From Sphingorhabdus sp. 109 (GTDB lineage: Bacteria; Pseudomonadota; Alphaproteobacteria; Sphingomonadales; Sphingomonadaceae), in contig NZ_LR732707.1 of the NCBI RefSeq assembly GCF_902506555.1, positions 3,185,290 to 3,249,289 of the forward strand: DNA of 64,000 bases. The letters are read 5' to 3'. Positions 31,974-56,478 of the stretch are shown piece by piece. Below the pieces are notes generated by a model. The model was not told where the DNA came from and did no database searches. It saw only the letters and a list, made by a program, of their open reading frames with translations. How positions within the stretch are numbered: position 1 is the first letter of the stretch; each line of letters opens with the position of its first letter. The position numbers were made by a program, and so were the translations under genes.

Positions 31974-32732
31974 TTAGAACTGGACGCGCTTGGTGAAGCC
32001 GCCGTCGATGACCAGATGCGCGCCAGTGGTGTAGCTGGACGCGGGGCTGGCGAGGAAGACGACGCTGCGGGCTACGTCATCGGCGGTGCCGAAATCACCC
32101 AGAGCGAAGCCGGCTTTCGTGCCTTCATAAAATTCCGGCATGCCTTTCTCGATCTGCGACCAGTTGCCACCCGGGAATTTGATCGGGCCCGGGGATACCA
32201 TGTTGACGCGGATGCCCTTGGGACCCAGCGCCTGGCCGAGCTGGCTGCCATAGGTGATCAGCGCGGCTTTCATCGCGTTGAAAGCCTGTGGCGCAACAAA
32301 GGTTTCGAAGGCTGCGGTGGAGGACATGAAAATCACGCTGCCATCGTCGGATTTTTCGAGATGGGGTTCCAGCACTTCCATCGCCTTGACCGCACCGAGA
32401 ATGTCGGTGTTGAACGTAACTTCCCAGTCACCGGTTGCGCCGGCACCCGACGAGCTGACATTGTGGATGAAAATATCGCAGCCGCCGAGATCGCCCGCCG
32501 CTTTTTCAAGCCATTTGGCATAGCCGTCGAGATCGCTCATATCGAGCGCATCGGCGAAGACCTTGCCGCCGTGGGCTTCGAGCTCCTTTTTCGCCGTCGC
32601 AACCTGTTCGGCGTTGCGCGAGAAGAAGGCGACATCGGCGCCTTCTGCGGCAAAATGTTCCAGCGCTGCACGCCCGAGGCCACGGCTACCGCCGGTGAGA
32701 ATGACTTTCTTGCCCTTGAGTCCTAAATCCAT
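31974..32732 (-). CDS. SDR-family protein lacking the catalytic tyrosine
   Basis: This 252-residue classical-SDR-length protein has the Rossmann motif TGGSRGLGRAALEHFA, HNVSSSG in place of NNAG, and a Ser in FMSSTAAF. Where YxxxK is expected, the sequence reads AFNAMKAALI (codon TTC), so the catalytic Tyr is Phe and the Lys remains. The C-terminal SSYTTGAHLVIDGGFT is typical. It may bind NAD(P) without the usual proton transfer, use another residue, or act as a lyase-like or structural partner. It is last in the operon GST, VOC, ThuA, SDR. Confidence 0.85.
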   Translation of the reverse strand: MDLGLKGKKVILTGGSRGLGRAALEHFAAEGADVAFFSRNAEQVATAKKELEAHGGKVFADALDMSDLDGYAKWLEKAAGDLGGCDIFIHNVSSSGAGATGDWEVTFNTDILGAVKAMEVLEPHLEKSDDGSVIFMSSTAAFETFVAPQAFNAMKAALITYGSQLGQALGPKGIRVNMVSPGPIKFPGGNWSQIEKGMPEFYEGTKAGFALGDFGTADDVARSVVFLASPASSYTTGAHLVIDGGFTKRVQF

Positions 32733-32764
32733 TGTCGTCTCCTTTATGTTTCGTGAAATCGGGG

Positions 32765-33550
32765 TTAGAATTTTGCTATGGCCGGTTCGCAGCTCCAGCC
32801 GATACCGCGCCGCAGCAGGTCATAGATGATCGGCTGCTGCCAGCCGGAACGGTCGACCTCAGGCCACCAGTCGAGCACCGGCTCCATGTCATAATGGCCA
32901 CGGCAGTGTCCCATGGTCAGATAGAGCACGGCGCCTTCGCCCATCCGGCGGATATAGAAGACCGGATGGCGGCTCTTCTCGATATCGCTATGGACGAAGC
33001 CGCTGATATCGTCGGTGCCATTATATTCGGTGTCGAGCAGAACATCGAGTTCGGCGCGGGTCTCGACCAGATATTGTTCGTCGACGGTTTCAAAACTGGG
33101 GATGCCCTTGACCAGCGGATGATCCGGCTGGGCGTTGTCGACGGTGAACGGAATGATCGGCGGGTGGCTCAAAAAGCGCGTGCCGAGCGTGTCGGCGAAG
33201 ACCGGCATTTCATCCGGTGCATCGACCCGGCCATCTTCCAGAAAGCGCAATACAGAATTGGTGCCATGCAGCGCGAAATAGCGGCCACCGTTGTTGACGA
33301 ACTCCTGAATAGTCTTCTGCGCCGCCTCGCTGGGTTGCAGGTCGCAGGTATAGCTGACGAGGAAATCGGCATTTCTGATCGCTTCGAGATTTTCATAATC
33401 CTCGAATACGCGAACCCGGATCCGGTCATCCTCGGCGAGCAGCTTCATCACTTCCAGCCGGGCATAATCGATATCATGATATTTGCCTGCGGCGACCAGC
33501 ACGCAGCGGATCGGTTTCTGGTCGGGGCGGCGTTCTGGCGCTTCGCTCAT
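32765..33550 (-). CDS. ThuA-like domain protein
   Basis: This 261-residue protein of the ThuA family has a glutamine-amidotransferase-like fold. Typical pieces are IRCVLVAAGKYHDIDYARLE, NADFLVSYTCDLQPSEAAQK, NGGRYFALHGTNS and a late PVFYIRRMGEGAVLYLTMGH followed by CRGHYD. ThuA proteins are linked to sugar or trehalose use elsewhere, but biochemical roles are largely unknown. The start directly abuts the VOC gene stop. It is third of four genes in the operon at 31974-34725. Confidence 0.85.
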   Translation of the reverse strand: MSEAPERRPDQKPIRCVLVAAGKYHDIDYARLEVMKLLAEDDRIRVRVFEDYENLEAIRNADFLVSYTCDLQPSEAAQKTIQEFVNNGGRYFALHGTNSVLRFLEDGRVDAPDEMPVFADTLGTRFLSHPPIIPFTVDNAQPDHPLVKGIPSFETVDEQYLVETRAELDVLLDTEYNGTDDISGFVHSDIEKSRHPVFYIRRMGEGAVLYLTMGHCRGHYDMEPVLDWWPEVDRSGWQQPIIYDLLRRGIGWSCEPAIAKF

Positions 33551-34099
33551 CTATTCTTTTCCTATTACGGGGTTTGTTTTGCCATCCCAGTCGAGATGCA
33601 TCTGGCGCATTGCGGCAAAGCCGTCGAGGCCGGCCTGCGGGATCTGCAGATATTCGATAATCGTACCGGGGCCGCCGCCATAATCGGCGTAGAAAGCACC
33701 ACCGACGCCACCGGGGAGGCTGACTTCCTGGATCACCTCGCCCCCCGCTTCTTCGGTCAGCGCGCGGGCGTGCGCCAGATCGTCGACCACCAGACAGAGA
33801 TGCTGAACTCCTTGCAGACCTTTTTCCCGCCAGTCCTTAAACATCGACGGGGCCTCATTGTTCGGGCGGATCAGTTCGACCTGGATATCGCCCCAGTAGC
33901 CGATCGCCATGGAAAACTGGATATCGGAAGGCTCGCCGCGATATTTGACATTTTCCACTTCGACCTTTTCGGTGTGGAAAAACGGGCCGGCGCCCATTTT
34001 CCGGGTCCAGTAATCGAGCGCGGCGTCATAATCCTCCGGCACATAGCTGATCTGCATGATCGTGCCGAGTTTGGCGAGAGAGGCTGGCTTGTTGGTCAT
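33551..34099 (-). CDS. VOC-family (glyoxalase/extradiol fold) protein
   Basis: This 182-residue protein has the paired beta-alpha-beta-beta-beta modules of the vicinal-oxygen-chelate superfamily: IMQISYVPEDYDAALDYWTR and VQHLCLVVDDLAHARALTEE, with GDIQVELIRP and GTIIEYLQIP as the metal-site strands with Glu residues. Possible reactions include isomerisation, epimerisation or glutathione-dependent rearrangement. It overlaps the GST gene by four bases and abuts ThuA, so these act in one pathway. Confidence 0.85.
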   Translation of the reverse strand: MTNKPASLAKLGTIMQISYVPEDYDAALDYWTRKMGAGPFFHTEKVEVENVKYRGEPSDIQFSMAIGYWGDIQVELIRPNNEAPSMFKDWREKGLQGVQHLCLVVDDLAHARALTEEAGGEVIQEVSLPGGVGGAFYADYGGGPGTIIEYLQIPQAGLDGFAAMRQMHLDWDGKTNPVIGKE

Positions 34100-34725
34100 T
34101 CGCTGTCCTGCCAGACTTTCGAGGATGGCCGCTCGCCGATCCGATCGACAAATTTTGCCAGATTATTCGTGCCTTCAGGCAGCGACCAGCCGACGGTGTA
34201 GCCGAACTGGATGAAGCAATAGGCGATAAGGTCCGCCATGGTGAACTTGTCCTGGCAGATATAGTCTTTGCCTTCGAGCTGGCTGTCGAGCCACTTCCAC
34301 TTGTTGTCCGCCATGCGCGACAGGTCGGCCGCGCCTTCAGCGCCGACGACTTCCATTCGCGGTTCGAACATCGGCCGTCCGGCACCGCCACGAAATCCGA
34401 GGGTCATCGGAACGGCGATTTCAAGATCAATACGCCGCGTCCACATCCGCACTTCTGCGCGCTCCTGGGCAGTGGATCCGATCAGCACGGGATCGGGATG
34501 GGTTTCCTCGAGATATTCGGCAATCGCCATGATCTCGCTGAGCATGAAACCATTGTCCAGTTCGAGCACCGGCGTGGTACCGAGAATATTCTTGTCGGCA
34601 AAATCCGGCTGCCGATTTTCCGCGGTGAGAATGTCGATATGGACCCGTTCGATATCGAGCCCCTTTTCGAGGATGAACATGCGGATGAATCGGGGATTGG
34701 GACCAAGGCTTGAATAAAGCTTCAC
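34096..34725 (-). CDS. Glutathione S-transferase family protein
   Basis: This 209-residue cytosolic GST has a thioredoxin-like N-terminal domain (VKLYSSLGPNPRFIRMFILE, NILGTTPVLELDNGFMLSEI with the cis-Pro) and an all-alpha C-terminal domain (FTMADLIAYCFIQFGY). The start is GTG 34725 with AAGGAGA upstream; the longer reading to 34839 has no homology. It leads the operon GST, VOC, ThuA, SDR and is divergent from a Rieske oxygenase gene. The pairing with a Rieske enzyme suggests thiol-dependent processing of an oxygenated aromatic or polycyclic compound, by analogy only. Confidence 0.88.
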   Translation of the reverse strand: MKLYSSLGPNPRFIRMFILEKGLDIERVHIDILTAENRQPDFADKNILGTTPVLELDNGFMLSEIMAIAEYLEETHPDPVLIGSTAQERAEVRMWTRRIDLEIAVPMTLGFRGGAGRPMFEPRMEVVGAEGAADLSRMADNKWKWLDSQLEGKDYICQDKFTMADLIAYCFIQFGYTVGWSLPEGTNNLAKFVDRIGERPSSKVWQDSE

Positions 34726-34907
34726 GTGAGATTTCTCCTTCGGGGCGGATTCGCTTCCGTCTCTATATGATGTAAAGATACACAGGTAACCACCGGGGAC
34801 TAACCTCTCAAAAACAACAGGCGATGCTGCCAGATTCACTAGTGGCCGAAGGGCCTGTTTAGGCTATTTTGATCGAAACAAAGACGTTCAGTTTTCAGGA
34901 GAAGATG

Positions 34908-36485
34908 ATGGTTGAGACTTTAACCGGACATAATCGGTCTAACGGTATTTCCTACACGGAACTGCTGGAGGGTGACAAAGTCGCTCCCCCCGCCGTGTAT
35001 CTCGAGGAATCTCCGATGGAGCCGGGCGTTACCACCGTCGAGGTCAGCCGCTACTGGTCCAAGGAAGAGCATGACCGCGAAGTCGAGAAGCTCTGGAAAC
35101 GCGTCTGGCAGATGGCTTGTCACAAGGATGAGATCAAGAATGTCGGCGACACGTTCGTCTATGATATTGCCGAGCTGTCCTTTCTGGTGGTCCGCGTTTC
35201 GGAAGACGAGATCAAGGCCTTCCCGAACAGCTGTATGCACCGCGGCCGGGCAATTTGCGACAATCACAAAAAAGGCCAGAAGGCGCTGCGCTGCCCGTTC
35301 CATGGCTGGTCCTGGGAGCTCAACGGCAAGCTGAAAGAAGTGCCCTGCCAGTGGGATTTTCCCTCGGTCAGCGAAGAAACCCACAGCTTGCAGGAAGTCA
35401 GTGTCGGCGAGTGGGGCGGGTTCGTCTTCATCAATCCGGATCCGAATTGCGAGCCGCTGGAGGATTTCCTCGGCGATATCGATCGCCATTTCCAGATTCC
35501 CTTCGAGCGGCGCTACAAGGCTGCGCATATGATCAAGCGTCTGCCCTGCAACTGGAAGATTGCGCAGGAAGCCTTCATGGAATCCTATCATGTGGTCGGC
35601 ACCCATCCCGAGCTGATGCCCGCCTTTGCCGATGCGAACAGCAAATATGATGTCTGGCACAATATTTCCCGTGCAATGTCTGCCCATGGTCAGCCCAGTC
35701 CGCATACCGGACTGGTCAATCCCGACCCGACAGCTTTCCCGGACCAGAAGGCGTTCCAGAGTTTCATCCACCCGATCAGCAAGCACAAGTTCGAACGGCT
35801 TGAGGAAAATCGCGTCAAAGTATCGCTGCCGAACGGCAAAAGCGGCATTTTCGATATGGAAGCCAATTATATCGAGGGCGATGTGACATCGGCCGATCCG
35901 CACATGTGTAACTGGATTGGCGGAAAGATCGCGCCGGCGGATGAAGATATGCCGATGGTTTATACCGATGAATCCGCACATGCATTGCGCGATGAGGCCG
36001 CACAGGCGCGCCGCGAGGAAATGCGGCCCATGTGGGGCGATATGGTCGACGAGATCAGTGACGCCGATCTGATGGACGCTATTTTCTACAGCGTGTTCCC
36101 GAACATCAGTCCATGGGCCGACTTCAACCCGATTTTCTACCGGTTCCGGCCGGATGGTGACAATCCGGAACAATCGCTGCATGAAGTCATGTTCATGGTT
36201 GCGCTGCCCGAGGGCGCGGAGCGGCCCGAACCGGCAAAATGCACGTTCCTCGACCTGGATGACGATTATACTCAGGCGGCTGAATTCGGCAGCTATCTGA
36301 ACAAGATTTTCAATCAGGATTATCTCAACCACAAGGCGATGCAGAAAGGGGTCAAGAGTCAGCCGGATGGCGTCTCCCTGTTCGCGCAATATCAGGAATC
36401 GAAGCTACGCCATTTCCACGAGACGCTGAATTTGTGGCTGAATTCTGACGAACCGCCCAAGAGCCCGAAGCGGGCGGCTGCCTGA
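34908..36485 (+). CDS. Rieske non-heme iron ring-hydroxylating oxygenase, alpha subunit
   Basis: This 525-residue oxygenase has the Rieske [2Fe-2S] motif SCMHRGRAICDNH followed by LRCPFHGWSWELNGKLKE, and the mononuclear iron region AFMESYHVVGTHPELMPAFA with two His ligands. The SRPBCC catalytic domain fills the C-terminal half and is longer than in KshA-type enzymes. No ferredoxin, reductase or beta subunit gene is adjacent, so electron donors lie elsewhere. Two adjacent ATGs occur; 34908 has the better AGGAGA spacing. A hotdog thioesterase follows two bases after the stop. Substrate unknown. Confidence 0.9.
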   Translation: MVETLTGHNRSNGISYTELLEGDKVAPPAVYLEESPMEPGVTTVEVSRYWSKEEHDREVEKLWKRVWQMACHKDEIKNVGDTFVYDIAELSFLVVRVSEDEIKAFPNSCMHRGRAICDNHKKGQKALRCPFHGWSWELNGKLKEVPCQWDFPSVSEETHSLQEVSVGEWGGFVFINPDPNCEPLEDFLGDIDRHFQIPFERRYKAAHMIKRLPCNWKIAQEAFMESYHVVGTHPELMPAFADANSKYDVWHNISRAMSAHGQPSPHTGLVNPDPTAFPDQKAFQSFIHPISKHKFERLEENRVKVSLPNGKSGIFDMEANYIEGDVTSADPHMCNWIGGKIAPADEDMPMVYTDESAHALRDEAAQARREEMRPMWGDMVDEISDADLMDAIFYSVFPNISPWADFNPIFYRFRPDGDNPEQSLHEVMFMVALPEGAERPEPAKCTFLDLDDDYTQAAEFGSYLNKIFNQDYLNHKAMQKGVKSQPDGVSLFAQYQESKLRHFHETLNLWLNSDEPPKSPKRAAA

Positions 36486-36487: not shown

Positions 36488-36898
36488 TTGGTTGAGTCTG
36501 TCCCGGCCGGTTTTGAACGGGCGAAATTTTCGAACCCGTTTCTGGACATGGCCGGGCCCTATTATGTGCGGCCTGGTGACGAGGGCATCATCGTCGGTAC
36601 GCGCATCCACGAGGGCCAGATCAATCATATTAACGTCGCGCACGGCGGCGTCCTCGGGACGCTCGCCGACGTGGCGCTGAGCCTGCAGGTTCATGAGGCC
36701 GAAAGGCCCCGTCTGCCGGTTGCTACGATGAGTCTGAATACCAACTATCTGGCTGCCGCAAAGCTGGATGACTGGGTCGAGGCCAATTGCCGGATCGATC
36801 GCATGAGCAAGCGTACCGCTTATTGCAGCGGCCGGATTGTCTGCGGCGACACGGTTCTTATGACGATGACCGCGGTGTTCGCGATTTTGCGGAAATAG
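36488..36898 (+). CDS. PaaI-family hotdog thioesterase
   Basis: This 136-residue hotdog protein has the typical HGGVLGTLADVALS block (helix entry) and SLNTNYLAAAKLDDWVEANC. It would hydrolyse acyl-CoA or aryl-CoA thioesters. The start appears to be TTG 36488, just after the Rieske stop, which implies translational coupling with the oxygenase. A second, unrelated PaaI-like gene lies at 59746. Confidence 0.85.
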   Translation: MVESVPAGFERAKFSNPFLDMAGPYYVRPGDEGIIVGTRIHEGQINHINVAHGGVLGTLADVALSLQVHEAERPRLPVATMSLNTNYLAAAKLDDWVEANCRIDRMSKRTAYCSGRIVCGDTVLMTMTAVFAILRK

Positions 36899-36946: not shown

Positions 36947-37762
36947 TCAGTCGGTCGCGCCGAGATACCCAAGCTGTCCGGCCTTGAAAATCGTCTGTCC
37001 GCGGTTGACGCTGTTCAGTTTCTGCCCGGCACGGTTAACATGATAGCGTATCGTCGCATGGCTGAGTGACAGGATCATGCTGATTTCCTTGTCGGTCTTG
37101 CCGATCGCCGCCCAGTGCAGACACTCGGCTTCCCGTTTGGACAGTATACAATTGGCCGGCATCCGGTGCTTTTCGCGCATGGCCAGTACATAGCCGGTGA
37201 CGAAACGGCGGGTGATGATGCCGAAAAAATCGGAATAGAGCCGATAGGGTTCGGTAAGATCGGAGATATCGTGCTCCAGCGGGGTGAAGCTGACCGCAGC
37301 TATCTGGCCAAACGGCAGGTGCACCGGGATGAGAATAGCAGATTTTGCCGAGGTGCCGCCCTGCGCGTAGAAATCCTTCAGGTCGATCTTGTCGAGATAT
37401 TCATTCGGCCAATGACCGTGGAAGCCGTCACCATTGCACCAGATCGGCTCGCTTTCGTAGCGGCAGGCCCTGGGCAGGGGGGAGCTGAGCGCGAGACGGG
37501 TATCTTCCCACCAGCGTTCGCCTTCAGCAACCCAGCCGAAGACGTCCTTGTTGATCAGATTGCCGTCGGCATCGACCAGATGCGCCTTGGATGAGATATC
37601 GGCGGAAACCGCTATTCTGAAGCCGTAGGACTGGGCAATCTTGTGCACGGCCTCGGCAGCAGGACGAATCTCCGCCGGATTGGTGATGGTGACACTGTTT
37701 ACATTCTCCCGAAAACGTTTCCGTCCAATCTCGGGAATTTCTGCGATAAAATTGTCAGCCAT
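36947..37762 (-). CDS. LuxR-family regulator, solo (no luxI)
   Basis: This 271-residue protein has a C-terminal LuxR-type HTH at about residues 205-268 (LSKREAECLHWAAIGKTDKE, then ISMILSLSHATIRYHVNRAG). The N-terminal domain has the size and position of an autoinducer-binding domain, but the usual W-x-Y-x(n)-D-P signature is not clear, so the ligand may not be a homoserine lactone. No luxI gene lies in the window. A good AAGGAG site precedes the ATG. It sits 119 bases downstream of the lipoyl gene on the same strand and is a candidate regulator of the island. Confidence 0.78.
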   Translation of the reverse strand: MADNFIAEIPEIGRKRFRENVNSVTITNPAEIRPAAEAVHKIAQSYGFRIAVSADISSKAHLVDADGNLINKDVFGWVAEGERWWEDTRLALSSPLPRACRYESEPIWCNGDGFHGHWPNEYLDKIDLKDFYAQGGTSAKSAILIPVHLPFGQIAAVSFTPLEHDISDLTEPYRLYSDFFGIITRRFVTGYVLAMREKHRMPANCILSKREAECLHWAAIGKTDKEISMILSLSHATIRYHVNRAGQKLNSVNRGQTIFKAGQLGYLGATD

Positions 37763-37881: not shown

Positions 37882-38115
37882 CTATTCAATCGTTCCGATC
37901 AGTTCGCCGACCGGATATTCTTCGCCATCGGCCTGGATAAGAATTTTCAGTTTTCCGCTTGCTGGCGATTCGACTTCCTGTGTCGATTTCTCATTTTCCA
38001 GCGCGTAAATTTCCTGTCCGGCGGTGACATCTGCGCCGTCCTCGACCAGCCATTCTGCAAGGATACCCGATTCCATGCTGAAGCCCAGTTTCGGTATTCT
38101 GATTTCTGTAGCCAT
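37882..38115 (-). CDS. Free-standing lipoyl (biotinyl-lipoyl) domain protein
   Basis: This 77-residue protein is a single lipoyl domain: IRIPKLGFSMESGILAEWLV, then EIYALENEKSTQEVESPASG with the lipoylated Lys at residue 43, and GEEYPVGELIGTIE. There is no E3-binding segment and no acyltransferase catalytic domain, so it is not a normal E2. It ends the operon E1-alpha, E1-beta, lipoyl and starts six bases after the E1-beta stop. It may shuttle between this E1 and an E2/E3 coded elsewhere, or act with a GcvH-like role. Confidence 0.85.
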   Translation of the reverse strand: MATEIRIPKLGFSMESGILAEWLVEDGADVTAGQEIYALENEKSTQEVESPASGKLKILIQADGEEYPVGELIGTIE

Positions 38116-38121: not shown

Positions 38122-39114
38122 TTATCCTAAGATTTTGTGCACTTCGCGTTCGATGTCGTCCTGGCTGAACATCCAGGCCTTTTCGATCGCTGGGGAAAAG
38201 GGAACGGGCGCATAGCCGGAGCCGACGCGGCCGACGGGTGCTTTCAGTTCGGAAAAGAGTTCTTCGTGGATGCGCGAAGAAATTTCCGCGCCCACACCGA
38301 AGTTCCTGACCGCTTCGTGGACAACGACCGCAGCCTTTGTCTTGGCGACGCTTTTCAGCACCGTTTCTTCATCGAATGGCGCAATGGTGCGCAGATCGAC
38401 GATTTCACAGGAGATGCCGTCTTCGGCCAGCTTGTCTGCGGCAGCATGGCACCGGCTGATGCTGCTGCCATAGCCGATCAGGGTGACATCCGTGCCTTCG
38501 CGCGGGACAGACGCCTTGCCGAGCGGCACCGTATGATCGGCTGCCGGAGCGGGGCCTTTGACAAAATAGCCCGGCGTATTCTCGATGAAGATCACCGGAT
38601 TGGGATCCATGATCGAGGAATAGAGCAGGCCATAGGCATCCGCCGGATTGGATGCGGCAACAACCTTCAGGCCGGGAACATGGGCCAGCCATGCCTCGAG
38701 CATGTCGCTATGCTGACCACCAAGACCGGTGCCGGCACCGGTGGTGGTGCGGATTGTCAGCGGAACCGTGGTCTGTCCGCCAGACATGAAGCGAAGCTTG
38801 GCGGCATGGTTGACGATCTGGTCCATCGCCACGGTGATGAAGTTCATCAGCATGATCTCGGCGACCGGCTTGTAGCCGACCATTGCGGAGCCAACCGCGG
38901 CGCCGACAATTGCCTGTTCGGAAATCGGGGTCGAACGGACGCGGTCCGTGCCGAATTTCTCGGACAGGCCGAGCGTCACCTTGAACACGCCACCGCCCTG
39001 TTCGTCGGCGATATCTTCACCCATCAAAATGACTTTGGGATCGTCTTCCATCGCCTTGGCCATCGCCATGTTGCAGGCCTGGGCGAACATGATTTCTTTT
39101 GGTTTCTCGCTCAT
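38122..39114 (-). CDS. 2-oxoacid (or acetoin) dehydrogenase E1, beta subunit
   Basis: This 330-residue transketolase-like beta subunit has the pyrimidine domain blocks KVILMGEDIADEQGGGVFKV, RVRSTPISEQAIVGAAVGSA and GLGGQHSDMLEAWLAHVPGL, and the C-terminal domain CEIVDLRTIAPFDEETVLKS. It forms the TPP enzyme with the alpha subunit, whose stop overlaps this start by four bases (ATGA). Pyruvate, branched-chain oxoacid and acetoin enzymes look alike at this level. Confidence 0.92.
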   Translation of the reverse strand: MSEKPKEIMFAQACNMAMAKAMEDDPKVILMGEDIADEQGGGVFKVTLGLSEKFGTDRVRSTPISEQAIVGAAVGSAMVGYKPVAEIMLMNFITVAMDQIVNHAAKLRFMSGGQTTVPLTIRTTTGAGTGLGGQHSDMLEAWLAHVPGLKVVAASNPADAYGLLYSSIMDPNPVIFIENTPGYFVKGPAPAADHTVPLGKASVPREGTDVTLIGYGSSISRCHAAADKLAEDGISCEIVDLRTIAPFDEETVLKSVAKTKAAVVVHEAVRNFGVGAEISSRIHEELFSELKAPVGRVGSGYAPVPFSPAIEKAWMFSQDDIEREVHKILG

Positions 39115-40094
39115 GCTGCAATCTCCACGTCGAGTACATCGATGCGATATTCCTCGCCCGGAGGATAGGGGGTGTCGAGCGCAAATTGTGACGCTTCCTC
39201 GATGATCGCTGCGTTTTTCGCTTCGATCGCGGCAATATCCGCTTCGCTGATCTGCAGATCGAGCAACTGCTGGCGCAGGATTGGCATCGGATCGTCTTTC
39301 TTCGCCTGCTCCATTTCCTCTTTCGGGATATAATGGCTGGTATCGCCAAGCAGATGGCCGTGGAACCGGAAGGTCATCGCCTCGATCAGCGTCGGTCCGT
39401 GGCCGGCACGCGCATATTCGACCGCTTCTTTCGCGGCTGCATACATCGCGCTGGCATCATTGCCGTTCACTTGCACCGACCGCATGCCAAGGCCTTCGCC
39501 GCGCTGCTTGATCGAATCAGAGCTGGTGGCAAAAGCCATCGGGGTATGTTCGGAATAAAGGTTGTTCTGGCACAGGAAGATTACCGGAAGCTTCCAGATC
39601 TGGGCCATGTTGAGGCCCTCGTGGAAAGCACCGATATTGGTAGCGCCATCGCCGAAGCAGCAGACGGTGACCTTGCCATCCTTGTCGAGCTGGCTGGCGA
39701 GACCGAGGCCGTTAGCAATGGGAATGCCCGAGCCAACGATACCGGTGGTCACCATCACTCCGGTTTCGGGATGGGTGATATGCATCGGCCCGCCCTTGCC
39801 CTTGCAAGTGCCCGCCATCTTGCCGGCAAATTCGGCCCAGAGATCTTTGGAAGGAATGCCCTTGGCGAGCTGGTCATGCAGGCCGCGATAAATCGTGACC
39901 AGATAATCTTCCTTGTTCACCGCTGCCATCATTGCCGAGGAGACAACTTCCTGTCCGCGCACGGGATAATAGACGATTTGCAACTGGCCCGCTCCGATCA
40001 TCTGCCGGAATTTGATATCCGACTGCATGATCAGGTCGGCGCGGGTAAAAATATCGATGAGGACGTCTTTGTCCGCCATGTCACTATTTGCCAA
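39111..40094 (-). CDS. 2-oxoacid (or acetoin) dehydrogenase E1, alpha subunit
   Basis: This 327-residue alpha subunit has the TPP motif CFGDGATNIGAFHEGLNMAQ, the region KGKGGPMHITHPETG, and TFRFHGHLLGDTSHYIPKEE near the phosphorylation-loop region. The start is TTG 40094 with AAAGGAG at good spacing; the next ATG at 40079 lacks one. It leads the operon with E1-beta and a free lipoyl protein but no E2 or E3. The divergent gene is an MDR-family reductase. The substrate is unknown and could be a 2-oxoacid or acetoin-like product of the island. Confidence 0.92.
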   Translation of the reverse strand: MANSDMADKDVLIDIFTRADLIMQSDIKFRQMIGAGQLQIVYYPVRGQEVVSSAMMAAVNKEDYLVTIYRGLHDQLAKGIPSKDLWAEFAGKMAGTCKGKGGPMHITHPETGVMVTTGIVGSGIPIANGLGLASQLDKDGKVTVCCFGDGATNIGAFHEGLNMAQIWKLPVIFLCQNNLYSEHTPMAFATSSDSIKQRGEGLGMRSVQVNGNDASAMYAAAKEAVEYARAGHGPTLIEAMTFRFHGHLLGDTSHYIPKEEMEQAKKDDPMPILRQQLLDLQISEADIAAIEAKNAAIIEEASQFALDTPYPPGEEYRIDVLDVEIAA

Positions 40095-48962: not shown

Positions 48963-49355
48963 ATGTCCGACAGCAAGCGACAGGTGCTCGACTTCATCGA
49001 CGCCTGGAACCGGCTCGATTTTGACGCGATCTACGCGGCGATGGCGAACGATATTTTCTATCATAATATCCCGATGGAGCCGTGCGTCGGGATTGATGCT
49101 GTCCGGGCCTTTTTCGACGGATCCGGGATGGGTTCCGATGGTGCGGAATGGATCGTTCACCATATAGCCGCCGAGGGCGACGCGGTGCTGACCGAGCGCA
49201 CCGACAAGTTCCGGATCAACGGACAGTGGATCGCCATCCGCGTGATGGGCACCTTCGAAATGCGTGATGGCAAGATCGCCAAGTGGCGGGATTATTTCGA
49301 CCTTGCCGAATTCCAGAACCAGATGGCGGCAGCCGTGGGTGCTGCCGCCTCCTGA
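48963..49355 (+). CDS. Limonene-1,2-epoxide hydrolase-like protein (NTF2 fold)
   Basis: This 130-residue NTF2-fold protein fits the LEH family: DFIDAWNRLDFDAIYAAMAN, the catalytic Arg-x-Asp in LTERTDKFRI, and the Asp in KWRDYFDL, forming the Asp-Arg-Asp triad of LEH. It could hydrate an epoxide, as mycobacterial relatives act on cholesterol epoxide. It ends two bases before the convergent SDR gene. Confidence 0.83.
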   Translation: MSDSKRQVLDFIDAWNRLDFDAIYAAMANDIFYHNIPMEPCVGIDAVRAFFDGSGMGSDGAEWIVHHIAAEGDAVLTERTDKFRINGQWIAIRVMGTFEMRDGKIAKWRDYFDLAEFQNQMAAAVGAAAS

Positions 49356-49357: not shown

Positions 49358-50119
49358 TCAGGCGGGCTTGTAGAGCACCCCGTTGTCGACCGGATATTCG
49401 CCAGCGGTCATGAAGCGGGATTCATCGCTCGCCAGATAGACGCATAGAGCCGCAACATCATTGGGGTGGCCCAGTTCACCAATCTTTATCATTCCGGTTG
49501 CCGGCGTTTCTCCGCCGCCAGCGCCAACGGATTCCTGACGCACCATCGGCGTGTCGATCCCGGCGGGATGCAGGCTGTTGCAGCGGATCGGGTAATCCTG
49601 CTCCTTGCAATGCAGGGCCACCGATTTGGTCATCGACCGCACGCCACCTTTGGCGGCGCTATAGGCGACAAATGGCGAATAGCCCTGCAAGGCCGCCATC
49701 GAACTGAGATTGATGATCGAGCTCGGCTGGTCGTTGGACTTCATCGCTCGCACGGCGCTGCGACATCCCAGAAATACACCGTCGAGCATGATAGAGGTCT
49801 GTTTGCGGAACAGTTCGAACGAGCAATCCTCGATTGTTCCGGGGAGGACCAGCCCTGCATTGTTCACCAGAATATGCGGCGTACCGAAAGCGCCTGCCGT
49901 CTCCGCGAATATTTTATCCCAGCGCGCCTCGTCGACAACATCCTGCTCCAGGGCGATGGCATTGGCGCCGATCCTCTCGGCGACCTGTTTTGCGGCGTCA
50001 ATCTCAATGTCGGTTAGCACGACCCGGGCGCCTTCTGCGGCAAATGTTTCGCTGATCGCTTTTCCGAGGCCGGATCCGGCGCCGGTTACGATGGCAATTT
50101 TTCCCTTGAGGCGGCCCAT
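49358..50119 (-). CDS. SDR-family oxidoreductase
   Basis: This 253-residue classical SDR has TGAGSGLGKAISETFAAEGA, VNNAGLVLPG, Ser in NLSSMAALQGY and the catalytic YSAAKGGVRSM. A C-terminal YPVDNGVLYKPA replaces the usual DGG end. It is the only minus-strand gene between the acyl-CoA dehydrogenase run and the TonB receptor pair, and is divergent from the first receptor. Confidence 0.87.
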   Translation of the reverse strand: MGRLKGKIAIVTGAGSGLGKAISETFAAEGARVVLTDIEIDAAKQVAERIGANAIALEQDVVDEARWDKIFAETAGAFGTPHILVNNAGLVLPGTIEDCSFELFRKQTSIMLDGVFLGCRSAVRAMKSNDQPSSIINLSSMAALQGYSPFVAYSAAKGGVRSMTKSVALHCKEQDYPIRCNSLHPAGIDTPMVRQESVGAGGGETPATGMIKIGELGHPNDVAALCVYLASDESRFMTAGEYPVDNGVLYKPA

Positions 50120-50401: not shown

Positions 50402-52864
50402 ATGACCAGAAATTCGCCGCGCCACAAAACCAACCTGAAAAGCACAGCAGTCAGATCGCTTCTGCTGAGCTCGGCCGCCGCCACCGCTTGCGCGGCGTTG
50501 GCGTCGCCAGCCTTGGCACAAGATTCCGAAGGCATGGATGAGCCAGCCATAATTACCGTTATTGCCCGCAAGCAGACCGAAACTTTGCAGGAAGTTCCTG
50601 TCACGGTCACCGCGATTGGCGGCGATACGCTGGAAAAATTCCAGGTCAATGAAATCGCCGATGTGGTCAGTCGTGTGCCTGCACTGAACGTGCAGGTTGG
50701 TGGCTCCGGTTCGGGTGGGCAGATCAGCTTGCGTGGTGTCGGTTCTTCCAACATTTCCGCATCATTTGACTCCGCTGTGGCATTTGATTTTGACGGTGTT
50801 CAAGTCAGCACCATGCGGATGGTACAAGCCGGATTTTTCGATGTTCAGCAGATCGATGTTCTGAAGGGGCCGCAATCTCTGTTCTTTGGCAAAAGTGCTT
50901 CCGCTGGTGTTTTCGCCATTCGTTCCGCCAATCCAACCCAAGACTGGGAAGTGGCAGGCAAGGCATCCTACGAGTTTGAGGAAAAAGGTTATACGCTCGG
51001 GGGGCATATCTCCGGTCCGATCACCGATACGCTTGGTATTCGCGTAGCTGCGCAATATCAGGATATTGAAGATTATGTGAAGCTGGCACCGGGAACGCCG
51101 GCCTTCAATCCCGATGGCAGTGTCCGGGATTCCAGGGGTATCAGCAATTTCATCAGCCGTGTGACCCTGCAATGGGATCCGGTTGACAATTTCAATGCGA
51201 ATTTGAAATTGAATTATATCAAGAACAAAAGCGACGGCGCGATTGGGCATACTGATGTAAGTTGCGGCGCAAATGGTGTTGCGGATCCCATCTATCTGTT
51301 GTCAGGCGCACTTGTGATCCCGTCGAATGCGGACTGTAACTCCCATGATGGCCTTTACCATACTTCCGATGGTGCGGCCGCCCTGGTATCCAACATTCCG
51401 ACCGGCTCAGGCGGTGACAATACAAAATTCGAAAACGGCACGCCTTTTGGTGAAACCGAGATTTTCTTCGGCCGTCTGAAATGGGACCTGGGTCTTTCCG
51501 ATTATCTGACCCTGTCGTCGGTTTCCGGTTATCTGAGCCTCGATGCTGTCGACACCGACTGTTATTCCTATGTCGGGGAATTGGCTCCCGGCGTTCCGGG
51601 TGGCGCAGGGTGTAGTGACCCGGTCAACCAGACCGAGCAATTCACGCAAGAGCTTCGTATCACCAGTGACTTTGACGGTATGTTCAATTTCATGATCGGT
51701 GCATTTTATGAAAGCCGCGATATCGACTTCAACACTTCGCAGCAGGGCGTGAATATTTCTTTCCTCGGCGCAGATCCCATTACAGGCTTCACCTATGACT
51801 GGTATAAGAAGCAGAACACGAAAACCGAAGCGCTATCGTTTTTCGCTAGTGCCACGCTGGATTTGACAGACCAGCTGGAACTGTCGGGCGGTGTGCGTTG
51901 GACTGACGAAAGCAAGGTATCGAGAATTACCGTTCCCTATGTTCATTCATTCCTTTCGGCTGGCCCTGCCTTTATCCCGAGCGGCTTTTTCTCGGGGCCC
52001 ATCAATTTCTCGGACTCCAATTTTTCACCGGAAGCCTCGATCAAATATCAGGCGACGCCCGATATCAATATCTACGCTTCTTTTAAAACCGGCTTCAAAT
52101 CCGGCGGCATAGACAATAGTGCATTGCCATCCTCTAGCCTGCTTGGCTTCAATGATCCTGATCCTGCTGTTCGTCAGGGGGTCGCCGATGCATTGAAGTT
52201 CGATTCCGAAACCGGATTGGGTGGCGAGATTGGCGTGAAAACCCAGTTGGCAAATCGCACGATTACCCTGAATACTTCGGTGTTCTACTATGTCTTTGAT
52301 GATCTTCAGGTTCAGAATTTCGACGCTGCCGCGGTTCAGTATCAGACTTTTAACGCCAGCCAGTTGACCAGCCAGGGTGTCGATGTCGAATGGGCGTGGC
52401 GCACGCCGGTTCAGGGCCTGAACTTCTCCGGCTCGCTTGCCTATACTGACGCAGAATTCACCGCTCCCTTCGTGACCACCTCGGGTGAGGACATCAACGG
52501 GCGGGCAGCGGCGCGCGCGCCAAAATTTGCGGCCAATGCAGCGTTTGATTGGTCGATCCCGATGGGCGATTCACTGGAACTCGGATTGAATGGCAACCTG
52601 CAATATAGCAGCTCCTATTTCACCAACGAAGATTCGCTGAACGATCTGAAGCAGGACAGCTATGTGTCCATCGACGGGTCGGTTTCGGTTGGGGATCCGG
52701 ACGGCAAATGGAAATTGTCGCTGGTCGGCGTCAACCTGACCGACAAGATCTGGATCAATACCAGTGCCGGCCGTCCGTTCCTTGAACCGGGTGTTGGGGA
52801 TGATTTGCTGCTGACGCAAAATCGTGGCCGTCAGGTATTTGTGGAAGCCGCCTTCAAGTTCTAA
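50402..52864 (+). CDS. TonB-dependent receptor, tandem copy 1
   Basis: This 820-residue outer-membrane receptor has a signal peptide (SSAAATACAALASPALA), a TonB-box-like segment IITVIARKQTETLQEVPVTV, plug blocks VSRVPALNVQVGGSGSGGQI and DVLKGPQSLFFGKSASAGVF, and a barrel ending in VEAAFKF. It is nearly identical to the following gene but with a different signal peptide. The type and its place in the catabolic island suggest uptake of the island's hydrophobic substrate rather than a siderophore. An ATG with GGGAGAGA upstream sets the start. Confidence 0.92.
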   Translation: MTRNSPRHKTNLKSTAVRSLLLSSAAATACAALASPALAQDSEGMDEPAIITVIARKQTETLQEVPVTVTAIGGDTLEKFQVNEIADVVSRVPALNVQVGGSGSGGQISLRGVGSSNISASFDSAVAFDFDGVQVSTMRMVQAGFFDVQQIDVLKGPQSLFFGKSASAGVFAIRSANPTQDWEVAGKASYEFEEKGYTLGGHISGPITDTLGIRVAAQYQDIEDYVKLAPGTPAFNPDGSVRDSRGISNFISRVTLQWDPVDNFNANLKLNYIKNKSDGAIGHTDVSCGANGVADPIYLLSGALVIPSNADCNSHDGLYHTSDGAAALVSNIPTGSGGDNTKFENGTPFGETEIFFGRLKWDLGLSDYLTLSSVSGYLSLDAVDTDCYSYVGELAPGVPGGAGCSDPVNQTEQFTQELRITSDFDGMFNFMIGAFYESRDIDFNTSQQGVNISFLGADPITGFTYDWYKKQNTKTEALSFFASATLDLTDQLELSGGVRWTDESKVSRITVPYVHSFLSAGPAFIPSGFFSGPINFSDSNFSPEASIKYQATPDINIYASFKTGFKSGGIDNSALPSSSLLGFNDPDPAVRQGVADALKFDSETGLGGEIGVKTQLANRTITLNTSVFYYVFDDLQVQNFDAAAVQYQTFNASQLTSQGVDVEWAWRTPVQGLNFSGSLAYTDAEFTAPFVTTSGEDINGRAAARAPKFAANAAFDWSIPMGDSLELGLNGNLQYSSSYFTNEDSLNDLKQDSYVSIDGSVSVGDPDGKWKLSLVGVNLTDKIWINTSAGRPFLEPGVGDDLLLTQNRGRQVFVEAAFKF

Positions 52865-52889
52865 CTGTTTTTCACGGTTGATCTAAACG

Positions 52890-52928: not shown

Positions 52929-53036
52929 GACGATGCGCTCACCAGCCAAATAGCGAAAGTGACAGTAGCAGGCAGCAAGGGACCTGTTACTCGCTGCGAA
53001 ACAAGGCGGCAGACAAATAGCCGTCAGTTTTTGGAT

Positions 53037-53069
53037 ATGCCTCAGGTCATCACTGAGGTATTTTTTTTT
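53037..53069 (+). promoter_or_regulatory. Leader hairpin with nine-T run abutting the receptor-2 ribosome site
   Basis: ATGCCTCAG pairs with CTGAGGTAT (with one G-T pair) around a seven-base loop, immediately followed by a run of Ts, then GGAGG and the ATG at 53080. It has the form of a rho-independent terminator placed directly before the Shine-Dalgarno, so it could be an attenuator for receptor 2 or the second terminator of receptor 1. Confidence 0.55.
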
Positions 53070-53079
53070 GGAGGTTCTT

Positions 53080-55539
53080 ATGAGTACACAATCGACACGT
53101 CTTGCTAAAATATCGCCCTGCCATTCCGTTCGGGGGCTGCTGATGGGTTCGGCGGCGAGCCTGGCTTTCGCCGGCATTGCGGCACCAGCATACGCACAGG
53201 ACGCTGTCGAATATGATGATAGCAACGTCATCACCGTGGTTGCCCGTAAGCAGACCGAAACTTTGCAGGAAGTGCCTGTGACGGTTACCGCTATTGGCGG
53301 CGACACGCTGGACAAATATCAGGTCAATGAAATTGCCGATGTGGTCAGCCGTGTGCCTGCGCTCAACGTGCAGGTCGGTGGCTCGGGTTCTGGTGGCCAG
53401 ATCAGTCTCCGCGGCGTCGGATCGTCGAATCTTTCGGCAGCGTTCGATTCCGCTGTCGCATTTGACTTTGACGGTGTTCAAGTCAGTACCATGCGGATCG
53501 TTCAGGCGGGCTTCTTCGATGTTCAACAGATCGATGTTCTCAAGGGACCTCAGTCACTTTTTTTCGGCAAAAGCGCGTCCGGCGGTGTCTTCGCTATCCG
53601 CTCCGCCAATCCGACCCGGGACTGGGAAGTCGCTGGCAAAGCTTCCTACGAATTTGAGGAAAACGGTTACACGCTCGGCGGGCATATTTCCGGGCCGCTC
53701 ACCGATACGCTCGGCATCCGTGTTGCTGCGCAATATCAGGATATCGAGGACTATGTGAAGCTGGCACCGGGAACCCCGGCCTTCAATCCCGATGGCAGCG
53801 TCCGGGATTCCCGAGGGATCAGCAACTTCATCAGCCGGGTGACCCTGCAATGGGATCCGGTTGACAATTTCAATGCCAATCTGAAGCTGAACTATGTCAA
53901 GAACAAGAGCGATGGCGCCATCGGTCATACCGACATCAACTGCGGTGCAAATGGCGTGGCGGATCCTGTCTATCTGCTTTCCGGTGCGGTCGTCATCCCT
54001 TCGAACGCCGATTGTAACGATCGTGACGGCCTGTATCACACTTCTGATGGCGCAGCGGTTCTTATGGGCAATGTCCCCGACGGATCCGGCGGCGACACCC
54101 GTTTTGAAAATGGCATACCTTATGGCGAAACCGATATTTTCTTCGGGCGGCTGAAATGGGATCTGGGTCTTTCCGATTATCTGACCCTGTCGTCGGTGTC
54201 CGGCTATCTCAGCCTCGATTCGATCGACACCGACTGCTATGCCTATCTCGGCGAGATCTCGCCTGGTGTACCCGGTAACGCGGGTTGCAGCGATCCTGTG
54301 AACAAGACCGAGCAGTTTACTCAGGAACTTCGGATCACCAGTGATTTTGACGGCATGTTCAATTTCATGGTCGGTGCATTTTATGAATCACGCGATATCG
54401 ATTTCAACACCTCGCAGCAGGGTGTGAATATTTCTTTCCTCGGCGCTGATCCGGTCACTGGCTATACTTATGACTGGTACAAGAAACAGAATACCAAGAC
54501 CGAAGCGCTTTCGTTTTTCGCCAGTGCAACGCTGGACCTGACGGAAGAGCTGCAGGTTTCCGGCGGTGTACGCTGGACGGACGAGAACAAGACCAGCCGG
54601 ATTTCGGTGCCTTATGTCCACACTTTCCTGTCATCGGGCCCGGCATTCATTCCAAGCGGCTTTTTCTCCGGACCGATCGAGTTCAGCGACGACAATTTCT
54701 CGCCGGAACTGTCGATCCGTTATCAGGCCACTCCGGACATTAATATTTACGGTGCCTTCAAGACCGGCTTCAAATCTGGCGGTATTGACAACAGCGCTCT
54801 GCCATCATCCAGCTTGCTGGGCTTCAATGATCCGGATCCGGCTACCCGTCAGGCGGTTGCCGACGCATTGAAATTCAAATCGGAAACCGGTCTCGGCGGC
54901 GAAGTCGGGGTCAAGGCGCAGTTCGCCAATCGCACGCTGACGGTGAACACTTCGGTTTTCTATTATGTATTTGATGATCTTCAGGTGCAGAATTTTGATG
55001 CCGCTGCGGTCCAGTTCCAGACGTTCAATGCCAGCCAGCTGACCAGCCAGGGTGTCGATGTCGAATGGGGATGGCGCACGCCGGTCGAGGGTCTGAATCT
55101 CTCCGGTTCGATTGCTTATACCGATGCGGAGTTTACCGCTCCGTTCGTGACCACATCGGGAGAAGACATTAACGGCCGGTCCGCCGCACGCGCGCCGAAA
55201 TTCGCCGCCAATGCTGCTTTCGACTGGACAGTCCCGATGGGCGATGCTCTCGAACTGGGATTGAACGGCAACCTGCAATATAGCGGTTCCTATTTCACCA
55301 ACGAGGATTCCTTCTCGGATATGAAACAGGACAGCTATATCTCGATCGACGGTTCGGTCTCGGTTGGCGATCCGGACGGCAAATGGAAATTGTCGCTGAT
55401 CGGTGTCAACCTGACCGACAAAATCTGGACCAACACCAGCAGTGGTCGCCCGTTCCTCGAGCCCGGTGTCGGTGACGATCTCGTGCTTACCCAGAATCGC
55501 GGCCGTCAGGTGTTCGTGGAAGCCGCCTTCAAGTTCTGA
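53080..55539 (+). CDS. TonB-dependent receptor, tandem copy 2
   Basis: This 819-residue receptor matches copy 1 over nearly its whole length; plug blocks, barrel repeats and the last 60 residues align almost without gaps, whereas the signal peptides differ (here SAASLAFAGIAAPAYA). A one-residue gap occurs near GSGGDTRFENG. Third-position changes are common, so the duplication is not brand new. The start is ATG 53080 with GGAGG; a TTG twelve bases upstream is not used. A strong terminator follows at 55562-55597. Confidence 0.92.
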   Translation: MSTQSTRLAKISPCHSVRGLLMGSAASLAFAGIAAPAYAQDAVEYDDSNVITVVARKQTETLQEVPVTVTAIGGDTLDKYQVNEIADVVSRVPALNVQVGGSGSGGQISLRGVGSSNLSAAFDSAVAFDFDGVQVSTMRIVQAGFFDVQQIDVLKGPQSLFFGKSASGGVFAIRSANPTRDWEVAGKASYEFEENGYTLGGHISGPLTDTLGIRVAAQYQDIEDYVKLAPGTPAFNPDGSVRDSRGISNFISRVTLQWDPVDNFNANLKLNYVKNKSDGAIGHTDINCGANGVADPVYLLSGAVVIPSNADCNDRDGLYHTSDGAAVLMGNVPDGSGGDTRFENGIPYGETDIFFGRLKWDLGLSDYLTLSSVSGYLSLDSIDTDCYAYLGEISPGVPGNAGCSDPVNKTEQFTQELRITSDFDGMFNFMVGAFYESRDIDFNTSQQGVNISFLGADPVTGYTYDWYKKQNTKTEALSFFASATLDLTEELQVSGGVRWTDENKTSRISVPYVHTFLSSGPAFIPSGFFSGPIEFSDDNFSPELSIRYQATPDINIYGAFKTGFKSGGIDNSALPSSSLLGFNDPDPATRQAVADALKFKSETGLGGEVGVKAQFANRTLTVNTSVFYYVFDDLQVQNFDAAAVQFQTFNASQLTSQGVDVEWGWRTPVEGLNLSGSIAYTDAEFTAPFVTTSGEDINGRSAARAPKFAANAAFDWTVPMGDALELGLNGNLQYSGSYFTNEDSFSDMKQDSYISIDGSVSVGDPDGKWKLSLIGVNLTDKIWTNTSSGRPFLEPGVGDDLVLTQNRGRQVFVEAAFKF

Positions 55540-55561
55540 TCAACTCCCGTTGATTGATTTT

Positions 55562-55597
55562 GGCCGGATTGACTCACGTCAATCCGGCCTTTTTTTT
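55562..55597 (+). terminator. Strong rho-independent terminator after TonB receptor copy 2
   Basis: A perfect 12-base stem GGCCGGATTGAC / GTCAATCCGGCC (55562-55573, 55578-55589) with a TCAC loop is followed by eight Ts. It separates the receptor pair from the downstream SDR. Confidence 0.92.
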
Positions 55598-55686
55598 GGC
55601 GACAATAGCCATTGTGAGAGTAGTCCGCAGTTCGTGAACAACTAATATGGCGAAACGCATAACAACTGGATTGGAGGAGCAAGTCT

Positions 55687-56478
55687 ATGGGACGACTGGA
55701 AGGAAAAAGGGCGATAGTTTTAGGGGCTGCCGGCCGCGACAATATGGGGCAGGTAATTGCCAAGCGTTTTCACGATGAAGGTGCCGATGTGCTGGTTGCA
55801 GGACGCCACGAAGAGGAGTTGAAGCGCTTTGCCGAGGAGATTGGCGGCCATTACGCACTGTGCGATCTCACCAACGAAGCGGATATCAAGGCGCTAGCCG
55901 ATAGCGCGAAAAGCCAAATGGGCGGCGTCGATATTGCGGTCAATGCCACCGGACTGGGGTTTCTCAAGCCATTTCTGGAAAACACCAGGGAAGAGCTGGA
56001 AACCATGTCAGCGCTGCAGCTGGTCGGGCCGTTCCAATTCTATCAGGAAATGATCAAGGCAATGGGCGATAGCGGATCACTCATCCAGATCAGCTCGGCA
56101 ACCGCGACGATCATGCTCAACGATCACGCCGCATATATGGGCACGAAGGCGGCAACCGACCATATCATCCGCTGCGTGGCGCATGAATTTGGCGAGCAGG
56201 GCATAAGAGCCAACAGTATTTCTCCGGGTCTGACACGCACGCCCATGACCGCTGGTGTCGACCAGGTGCCGGGACTGGTTGAATCCTTCGAGGCGCGCTA
56301 CCCGCTCGGGCGGATCGGCACCAGCGAGGATATTGCAGCTGCCGCCGTATTCCTGGCCAGCGACGAATGTTTCATGACCGGCGAGAATTTGCAGGTCAAC
56401 GGTGGACTGTGCCTGCGCGGCAATCCGACCCGCAAGGACCAGGAACTGATGATGGGGGCTGTCGCCGCCGCTTCCTGA
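55687..56478 (+). CDS. SDR-family oxidoreductase
   Basis: This 263-residue SDR has an altered glycine motif LGAAGRDNMGQVIAKRF (as in enoyl-reductase-like SDRs), NATGLGFLKP in place of NNAG, Ser in IQISSATATI and the catalytic YMGTKAATDHI. The C-terminal tail is longer than usual. It could oxidise or reduce an island intermediate. It sits after the receptor terminator with its own GGAGGAG ribosome site, and is convergent with the DUF393 gene. Confidence 0.87.
   Translation: MGRLEGKRAIVLGAAGRDNMGQVIAKRFHDEGADVLVAGRHEEELKRFAEEIGGHYALCDLTNEADIKALADSAKSQMGGVDIAVNATGLGFLKPFLENTREELETMSALQLVGPFQFYQEMIKAMGDSGSLIQISSATATIMLNDHAAYMGTKAATDHIIRCVAHEFGEQGIRANSISPGLTRTPMTAGVDQVPGLVESFEARYPLGRIGTSEDIAAAAVFLASDECFMTGENLQVNGGLCLRGNPTRKDQELMMGAVAAAS

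Follow-up and report, generated by a model that had tools for sequence, protein, structure and literature searches.

Positions 31974..56478 of the window, a 64,000-nucleotide stretch of Sphingorhabdus sp. 109 DNA, were previously described, in a reading made from the letters alone, as a catabolic island for a steroid- or isoprenoid-like compound. Our comparative analysis reveals that this region belongs to a widely shared catabolic cluster; the term island is mistaken, and the link to steroids probably is too. Comparison of genes indicates that the members of the cluster are inherited together, and we further infer its substrate and mechanism: we give an even chance to a vertically kept catabolic pathway, probably regulated by a LuxR-type protein, that acts on a small-to-medium cyclic or methyl-branched carboxylic acid and not on the steroid nucleus. 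No paper among the literature-search results listed describes this gene combination as a pathway, in agreement with the sequence-only reading, which had taken the genes for a single catabolic cluster of unrecognized composition. What had been a vague catabolic island can now be recast as a defined candidate pathway comprising some 26 genes, of which a minimal version has 11, and substrate screening is therefore feasible.

A thiolase-like protein with a Cys-Gln-Glu active site

The cluster encodes a thiolase-superfamily protein and, directly upstream, a partner with an oligonucleotide/oligosaccharide-binding (OB) fold. Alignment of the former with solved thiolases and among 23 sequences reveals that Cys78 is kept at the position of the thiolase nucleophile, whereas the His of the HDxF motif is replaced by Gln280 (the motif reads QDTE) and the His of the GHP motif by Glu330 (GEP). 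The best PDB matches are 7yvy, 7pxp and 6hsj. The residues Cys/Gln/Glu are present in all 122 distinct orthologues examined (at least 45% identity, more than 300 residues), 79 of which were collected by scanning for the peptide GAEIMHM near Gln280 and may be biased. Sets assembled independently of this pattern are likewise uniform, comprising 28 genome-search, 9 plasmid and 9 class-search sequences that can overlap between sets. Three genomes of family f39 (G216, G343 and G439) each encode the thiolase relative three times, with two copies arranged in tandem, and all three copies in G216 are Cys/Gln/Glu.

More divergent homologues are less uniform. Four more distant sequences include two with Cys/His/His, one with Cys/Gln/Glu and one with Gly/Tyr/Tyr, and 20 paralogues at 29-34% identity are divided among Cys/His/His (10), Cys/Tyr/Glu (6) and Cys/Ala/Glu (4). 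Thus, replacement of the GHP His by Glu is also seen in sister groups. The Cys/Tyr/Glu paralogues reside approximately 2-4 kb from a gene for a BphC/HsaC-type dioxygenase in five of six cases (loci L216, L217, L219, L224 and L228; genomes G061, G133, G011, G071 and G057), and their setting suggests a sister enzyme class in aromatic pathways.

The sequence-only reading had named this gene pair DUF35-Ltp2. Like the steroid aldolases Ltp2-ChsH2(DUF35) and Sal-Shy, the window pair unites a thiolase fold with an OB/DUF35 partner and occurs in a cluster with a two-subunit acyl-CoA dehydrogenase (ACAD; CoA, coenzyme A). Unlike them, it has the residues Cys78-Gln280-Glu330, no zinc ribbon, and an OB protein that is not fused to a hydratase. 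In two reports (PMC12329534, PMC8399759), the active site of Ltp2 is formed by Tyr294 and Tyr344 and that of Sal by Tyr302 and Cys304 with Gln352, and both enzymes are without the Cys nucleophile of thiolases. Two Ltp2 relatives that we aligned have Gly/Tyr/Tyr at the three positions. The SCP2-type thiolases, to which PMC12329534 ascribes an HDCF motif, and the benzoylsuccinyl-CoA thiolase BbsAB share the nucleophilic Cys with the window protein, but differ from it in that both catalytic His residues are replaced in the latter.

The OB partner has no Cys residues, and the aligned part of 103 distinct homologues contains zero to two, as against at least four Cys in the Rhodococcus DMU1 partner. 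DUF35 partners in solved complexes bind zinc via three or four Cys, according to PMC12329534. Loss of the zinc ribbon alone is not special, however, because IpfE of the ibuprofen (ipf) pathway, with two Cys, also is without a four-Cys ribbon. We rejected an Ltp2-type aldolase as a candidate, given Cys/Gln/Glu in place of a Tyr pair without Cys, and given an OB partner without a zinc ribbon. What had been called DUF35-Ltp2 is an OB_ChsH2_C protein accompanied by a thiolase of another type.

As a result of its Cys-Gln-Glu residues, the window protein is neither a classical thiolase nor an aldolase of the Ltp2, Sal or IpfD type. Its predicted active site differs from those of all described types compared, and we infer its mechanism from the residues present. 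If Cys78 serves as the nucleophile and Glu330 (and Gln280) replace the two catalytic His, then acyl transfer or a retro-Claisen reaction would be expected, and not the Tyr-based retro-aldol reaction of Ltp2. Such an enzyme would represent a further active-site solution beside the His-based thiolases and the Tyr-based aldolases.

Extent of the cluster and its inheritance within the genus

The genome of the host (3.62 Mb in five contigs, with a completeness estimate of 100%) carries a cluster that extends left of position 31974 to include a CoA ligase gene and, directly downstream of it, a crotonase gene. The genes are listed below with the number of loci, among 26 from other genera, that hold a relative. 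These loci lie beside an orthologous thiolase gene, span at most 40 kb each (four are shorter), and were scored at a minimum of 40% identity over at least 55% of the length; the families of short-chain (SDR) and medium-chain (MDR) dehydrogenases/reductases are large, and part of their counts may be paralogues.

27172..28920, plus strand: AMP-dependent acyl-CoA ligase (AMP-binding domains; 5/26)
28959..29780, plus: crotonase, enoyl-CoA hydratase/isomerase (ECH_1, E=1.7e-42; 1/26)
31974..32732, minus: SDR1 (Pfam; 8/26)
32765..33550, minus: ThuA-domain protein (PF06283, E=7e-20; 22/26)
33551..34099, minus: VOC (Glyoxalase_4) protein (Pfam; 11/26)
34096..34839, minus: glutathione S-transferase, GST (Pfam; 3/26)
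34869..36485, plus: Rieske oxygenase alpha subunit of 538 aa, with an uncertain start codon (Rieske and Ring_hydroxyl_A domains; 0/26 at the cuts used)
36488..36898, plus: 4HBT thioesterase (Pfam; 1/26)
36947..37762, minus: LuxR-type regulator (GerE, E=1.7e-14; 23/26)
37882..38115, minus: free lipoyl-domain protein, 77 aa (PF00364, E=2.4e-15; 8/26)
38122..39114, minus: thiamine pyrophosphate (TPP) E1 beta subunit (Pfam; 14/26)
39111..40094, minus: TPP E1 alpha subunit (E1_dh, E=4.4e-72; 6/26 at the identity cut)
40392..41393, plus: MDR1, curcumin-reductase-like (Pfam; 17/26)
41480..42691, plus: ACAD1, PimC-like large subunit (best model, below its cut-off; 0/26)
42703..43842, plus: ACAD2, PimD-like small subunit (best model, below its cut-off; 0/26)
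43859..44239, minus: SnoaL_2/NTF2-type protein (Pfam; 0/26)
44324..45094, plus: SDR2 (Pfam; 18/26)
45177..45590, plus: OB-fold (ChsH2_C) partner without Cys (PF01796, E=5.2e-17; 16/26)
45593..46738, plus: thiolase-superfamily protein, Cys78-Gln280-Glu330 (Pfam and alignments)
46747..47922, plus: ACAD3, the third ACAD (Pfam; 7/26)
47926..48948, plus: MDR2 (Pfam; 19/26)
48963..49355, plus: limonene-epoxide-hydrolase (LEH)-type protein (PF07858, E=1.2e-24; 8/26)
49358..50119, minus: SDR3 (Pfam; 9/26)
50402..52864, plus: TonB-dependent receptor (Pfam; 2/26)
53068..55539, plus: second TonB-dependent receptor, 87% identical to the first (2/26)
55687..56478, plus: SDR4 (Pfam; 11/26)

Pfam searches bear out the oxygenase, the GST-linked module, the TPP enzyme with a free lipoyl carrier, the three ACADs, the SDRs and the duplicated outer-membrane receptors that the sequence-only reading had listed, all at the positions above. 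Its gene list was nevertheless incomplete, in that the ligase, the crotonase, both MDRs, the LuxR regulator and the 4HBT thioesterase had been omitted, and its ketosteroid isomerase yields only an unspecific SnoaL_2/NTF2-type match. The epoxide hydrolase-like protein is indeed of the LEH type. When aligned to solved LEHs, it keeps Y-x-N (YHN), R-x-D (ERTD) and WRDYFD, which we take to be the five catalytic positions of limonene-epoxide hydrolase.

A relative of the thiolase is found in 31 of the 32 genomes of the genus, the host included, one of these being a 171-residue piece in a genome that is 67% complete. The gene order from SDR1 to SDR4 is kept in 10 of the 11 congeneric loci compared, and all 11 have the ligase within the 40-kb stretch around the thiolase and the Rieske gene at 78-98% identity; the crotonase was detected in congeners solely via antisense matches. 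Many cluster genes are rearranged in the congener G173. A single TonB receptor is present in six of the 11 loci, five of which are among the ten that conserve order. The AstE- and EamA-like genes between the crotonase and SDR1 are patchy, with the EamA gene present in 3 of 32 congeners. An open reading frame (ORF) at 28887-29897 on the minus strand was dropped as a gene since it is antisense to the crotonase, and its congener matches were not counted. To the right, gyrB (56952-59546) forms the border of the cluster here and in five of the 11 congeneric loci, and lies outside the fetched stretch in the other six.

Each of 22 flanking genes of the window, used as controls, has a relative in none of the 26 other-genus loci. 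Because gene order is conserved in the congeneric loci, the thiolase is nearly universal in the genus and the flanking controls do not recur, we conclude from these comparisons that the cluster is one inherited unit that belongs to the genus core and is not a mobile island. A mobile catabolic island, for which patchy presence among close relatives would be expected, was rejected on the thiolase count. The sequence-only reading had named scattered positions in relatives as evidence against itself; within the genus, positions are conserved. In a genome scan from which the top 80 of 550 confirmed places were retained (and which may omit the record of the window itself), the closest named contigs among those retained carry thiolases 96-98% identical to that of the window and come from metagenome-assembled genomes (MAGs) titled Sphingomonadales, Parasphingorhabdus, Sphingopyxis, Sphingorhabdus and Sphingomonadaceae. 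If the substrate were an abundant plant, algal or humic acid, this near-universal presence would be ecologically relevant.

Two forms of the cluster and a compact version outside the genus

Apart from the thiolase, 26 cluster genes were followed into the 26 other-genus loci, and relatives of 16 of them occur in five or more of these. A search of the family found a thiolase relative at 66% identity or more in 28 of 149 genomes (the host included), with the next best matches at 37% or less. In Novosphingobium, Croceicoccus and others, the usual arrangement is SDRs / Rieske-ThuA / ACAD / LuxR / OB-thiolase-ACAD-E1a-E1b-E2-VOC, and in many cases an ACAD gene and one for an APH-type phosphotransferase come next; relatives of ACAD3 (71-78%) adjoin the latter in some Novosphingobium- or Croceicoccus-type loci. 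The placement of OB, thiolase, ACAD, E1, E2 and VOC genes in one run supports a single pathway. Where the Novosphingobium form has E2, the window form has a lone lipoyl domain. Among 72 loci with a lipoyl match, this domain is free in 32 (76-78 aa), part of a full E2 in 37 (458-484 aa) and cut at a contig end in 3, with some genomes entered twice under two locus names. The arrangement of E1 alpha and beta genes with a free lipoyl domain also occurs in L095, L072, L084 and others. Among the loci of the genome scan, five from other genera, all Novosphingobium-titled or sphingomonad (L125, L128, L130, L131 and L132), encode a window-type Rieske protein (68-69%) near the thiolase, and other Rieske families often occupy its place in other-genus loci.

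A class-wide search identified the thiolase in 13 of 385 genomes (the host included), three of which are only 1.3-1.4 Mb in size and 93-97% complete. Two of these three carry a compact 11-gene run, ligase-OB-thiolase-MDR-ACAD-ACAD-MaoC-Rieske-SDR-E1a-E1b, flanked on the other side by an ACAD and an FAD oxidase. The relative of the window ligase (50-51%) lies beside the OB-thiolase pair in L229, L230 and L231. Genomes of this size make it probable that the substrate is modest in size. To us, the compact run is the best argument that the oxygenase, the TPP enzyme, the ligase and the thiolase may act together, and that their substrate is probably not large.

Linkage is not universal. Loci L235 and L236 of G216 have no gene of the panel besides the thiolase, the OB gene and a crotonase-like match, and only the OB and thiolase genes were seen in G011. 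For two Rhodococcus loci, the thiolase is the sole gene in common at the identity cut, the rest being content at the level of gene families, and in Mycobacterium branderi the OB gene and the thiolase relative are not immediate neighbors.

A proposed pathway

These genes can be arranged in a candidate pathway. After uptake through the TonB receptors, an alicyclic or methyl-branched acid would be activated with CoA by the ligase, and the Rieske enzyme and the SDRs would oxidize the ring to an alpha-hydroxyketone or a 2-oxo compound. The E1 alpha and beta subunits, of the pyruvate/acetoin dehydrogenase type, might then cleave a carbon-carbon bond and transfer the product onto the free lipoyl carrier, a step that would replace extradiol ring opening. 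The MDRs may reduce an enone, the PimCD-like ACAD pair could desaturate and the crotonase hydrate the resulting acyl chain, and the OB-thiolase pair would finally cleave it. A review on tetralin has PimCD-like enzymes acting on a product derived from an alicyclic ring (PMC6563040). MDR1 scores best with curcumin reductase, below the cut-off of that model.

A broader proposal is that the Cys-Gln-Glu proteins, which occur in actinobacteria as well as in sphingomonads and other alphaproteobacteria, are a new class of thiolase-superfamily enzyme that cleaves carbon-carbon bonds. They would be central to an aerobic route, so far undescribed, by which a Rieske oxygenase and a TPP/lipoyl enzyme open an alicyclic ring without an extradiol dioxygenase, and of which small alphaproteobacterial genomes hold a compact form. 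We regard this as possible but doubtful, and rate it no higher because pyruvate dehydrogenase models are the best matches of the E1 subunits. Specifically, E1 beta passes the cut-off of a pyruvate dehydrogenase E1 beta subfamily, and E1 alpha is closest to pyruvate dehydrogenase among both models and structures. For the lipoyl domain, the top-scoring model is the E2 of acetoin dehydrogenase, and the TomTYG65 record names its copies of the module acoA/acoB2/acoC. The window has E1 alpha and beta subunits of the TPP family to which those of the pyruvate and acetoin dehydrogenase complexes belong but, unlike these complexes, a 77-aa lipoyl domain without the E2 transferase domain.

Several observations weigh against the pathway as we have drawn it. 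The E1 subunits lie closest to pyruvate dehydrogenase among models and structures, with only the lipoyl domain pointing toward acetoin dehydrogenase, and a lipoyl protein without an E2 transferase leaves the acyl acceptor unaccounted for. The E1 genes are also unevenly distributed among the other-genus loci (beta in 14 of 26, alpha in 6). None of these 26 loci has a match to the Rieske, ACAD1, ACAD2 or SnoaL proteins at the cuts used, and substrates may therefore differ between lineages. In addition, the third small genome (L230) has the ligase-OB-thiolase-MDR part and no Rieske or E1 gene within 20 kb, the locus of the congener G173 has no match to ACAD2, ACAD3 or SnoaL, and in L119, the single relative on which a link to 3-hydroxy-3-methylglutaryl (HMG)-CoA lyase is based (see below), there is no E1 gene in the 21 kb present.

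Steroid-type genes and alternative substrates

The sequence-only reading had remarked that none of the classic ring-opening genes is in the window, a gap that, at the thresholds applied, the rest of the genome shares. No match was found in it to KshA_C (PF19298), in a search run without a sphingomonad positive control, or to the BphC/HsaC type (TIGR03213) at E<=1e-20, a type that 50 of 149 genomes of the family match. A single divergent KstD-like flavoprotein (298 bits versus a cut-off of 788) is encoded 0.69 Mb from the cluster, in a run of genes for HMG-CoA lyase, hydantoinase A, hydantoinase B, the flavoprotein and an SDR. This second catabolic locus, G000:C2:2530971-2539600 (L185, L186), also includes a CoA transferase gene, and parts of it lie near the thiolase cluster in relatives.

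KstD-like genes are found in 19 of the 28 thiolase carriers versus 16 of 121 non-carriers (Fisher p 1.8e-8), and strong HsaC-type matches are mildly enriched (9 of 28 versus 15 of 121; p 0.019), although kinship and genome size are confounding factors in both comparisons. Thirteen of the 28 carriers have no HsaC-type match at all. In 7 of 27 relatives, the distance between a KstD-like gene and the thiolase is no more than about 15 kb, and the host's own copy shows 58-66% identity to those located up to about 19 kb from the thiolase in eleven relatives (G082, G054, G096, G018, G127, G033 and G173; contigs L136, L128, L130 and L125). This proximity, like the enrichment, hints at a cyclic ketone. 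The contig L119 belongs to a MAG with the title Novosphingobium sp. Chol11. Its thiolase cluster is followed by relatives of the CoA-transferase, lyase and hydantoinase genes (54-75%), and this one locus hints at a methyl-branched, isoprenoid-type skeleton. The isoprenoid-like half of the original proposal may therefore stand, whereas its steroid half is not supported: a steroid nucleus is an unlikely substrate, because these searches of the genome gave no KshA_C or HsaC-type match and because a compact version occurs in small genomes.

A steroid connection could still take another form, namely a cluster for the side chains of steroids or bile acids in which the OB-thiolase pair is the missing side-chain lyase of Sphingomonadaceae, with the ring genes elsewhere. 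As reported in PMC8399759 (see also PMC12882949), Chol11 and related bile-acid degraders are without homologues of Sal1, FadA5, Sad and Sal2/Ltp2, so that an alternative route is expected; a contig from the MAG titled Chol11 carries the thiolase, KstD-like and strong HsaC-type genes are enriched among carriers, and PMC12239570 lends mild support in placing homologues of progesterone/steroid genes on pNL2. Against this stand the missing KshA_C and HsaC-type matches, the 13 of 28 carriers that are without any HsaC-type match, the minimal version in genomes of 1.3-1.4 Mb and the confounding of both enrichments, and we consider such a role improbable. Equally improbable is a cyclic norisoprenoid acid such as abscisic acid, whose side chain would be shortened to a methyl ketone and then converted to a tertiary-alcohol acetate while the MDRs, the SDRs and the KstD-like enzyme act on the oxo-cyclohexenyl ring. 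Strains of Novosphingobium and Rhodococcus use abscisic acid, with dehydrovomifoliol as an intermediate in Rhodococcus (PMC7996341 and PMC12509608; abscisic acid degradation is also the subject of PMC9599779). Both genera hold the thiolase, and L119 links it to HMG-lyase, hydantoinase-type and CoA-transferase genes. Overlap of genera is weak evidence, however, and the assignment of steps is our own and not taken from a paper.

The nearest described logic is that of the ipf pathway on pIBU218 of Rhizorhabdus wittichii, where ligase, Rieske, OB and thiolase-fold genes occur in one cluster, as they do here (PMC9195938 and PMC11347016). A pathway of this kind would ligate an aryl acid to CoA, dioxygenate the ring and deacylate the product to a catechol, and the low Cys content of IpfE provides a further parallel. 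We nonetheless judge it very unlikely: IpfD is a Tyr/Tyr-type protein with Glu/Tyr/Tyr and no Cys, 22% identical to the window thiolase, the window Rieske protein is 27% identical to IpfA over 211 residues, and the catechol that is the described ipf product finds no BphC-type dioxygenase match in the genome, where one-domain catechol dioxygenases were not searched for. Finally, two or more unrelated pathways might adjoin by chance. The GST, SnoaL and thioesterase genes are mostly lineage-specific, and the E1 and ligase genes are absent from many other-genus loci, as would be expected from such an assembly. The compact version, which unites ligase, OB-thiolase, Rieske, SDR and E1 genes in a single run, and the control genes, of which 0 of 22 recur, argue the other way, and chance adjacency strikes us as unlikely. 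A single pathway for a cyclic or methyl-branched acid is the reading that we prefer.

Genes to the left of the cluster

Upstream of the ligase, two CoA-transferase subunits lie on either side of an ORF without a Pfam match (23535-24479) in the interval 22828-25123. A sugar-isomerase-like gene (26390-27187) has no relative in the 26 other-genus loci at the cuts used. Between them, positions 25134-26393 encode a serine hydrolase of the Beta-lactamase Pfam family, probably an esterase-like enzyme, that is present in 4 of 11 congeneric stretches.

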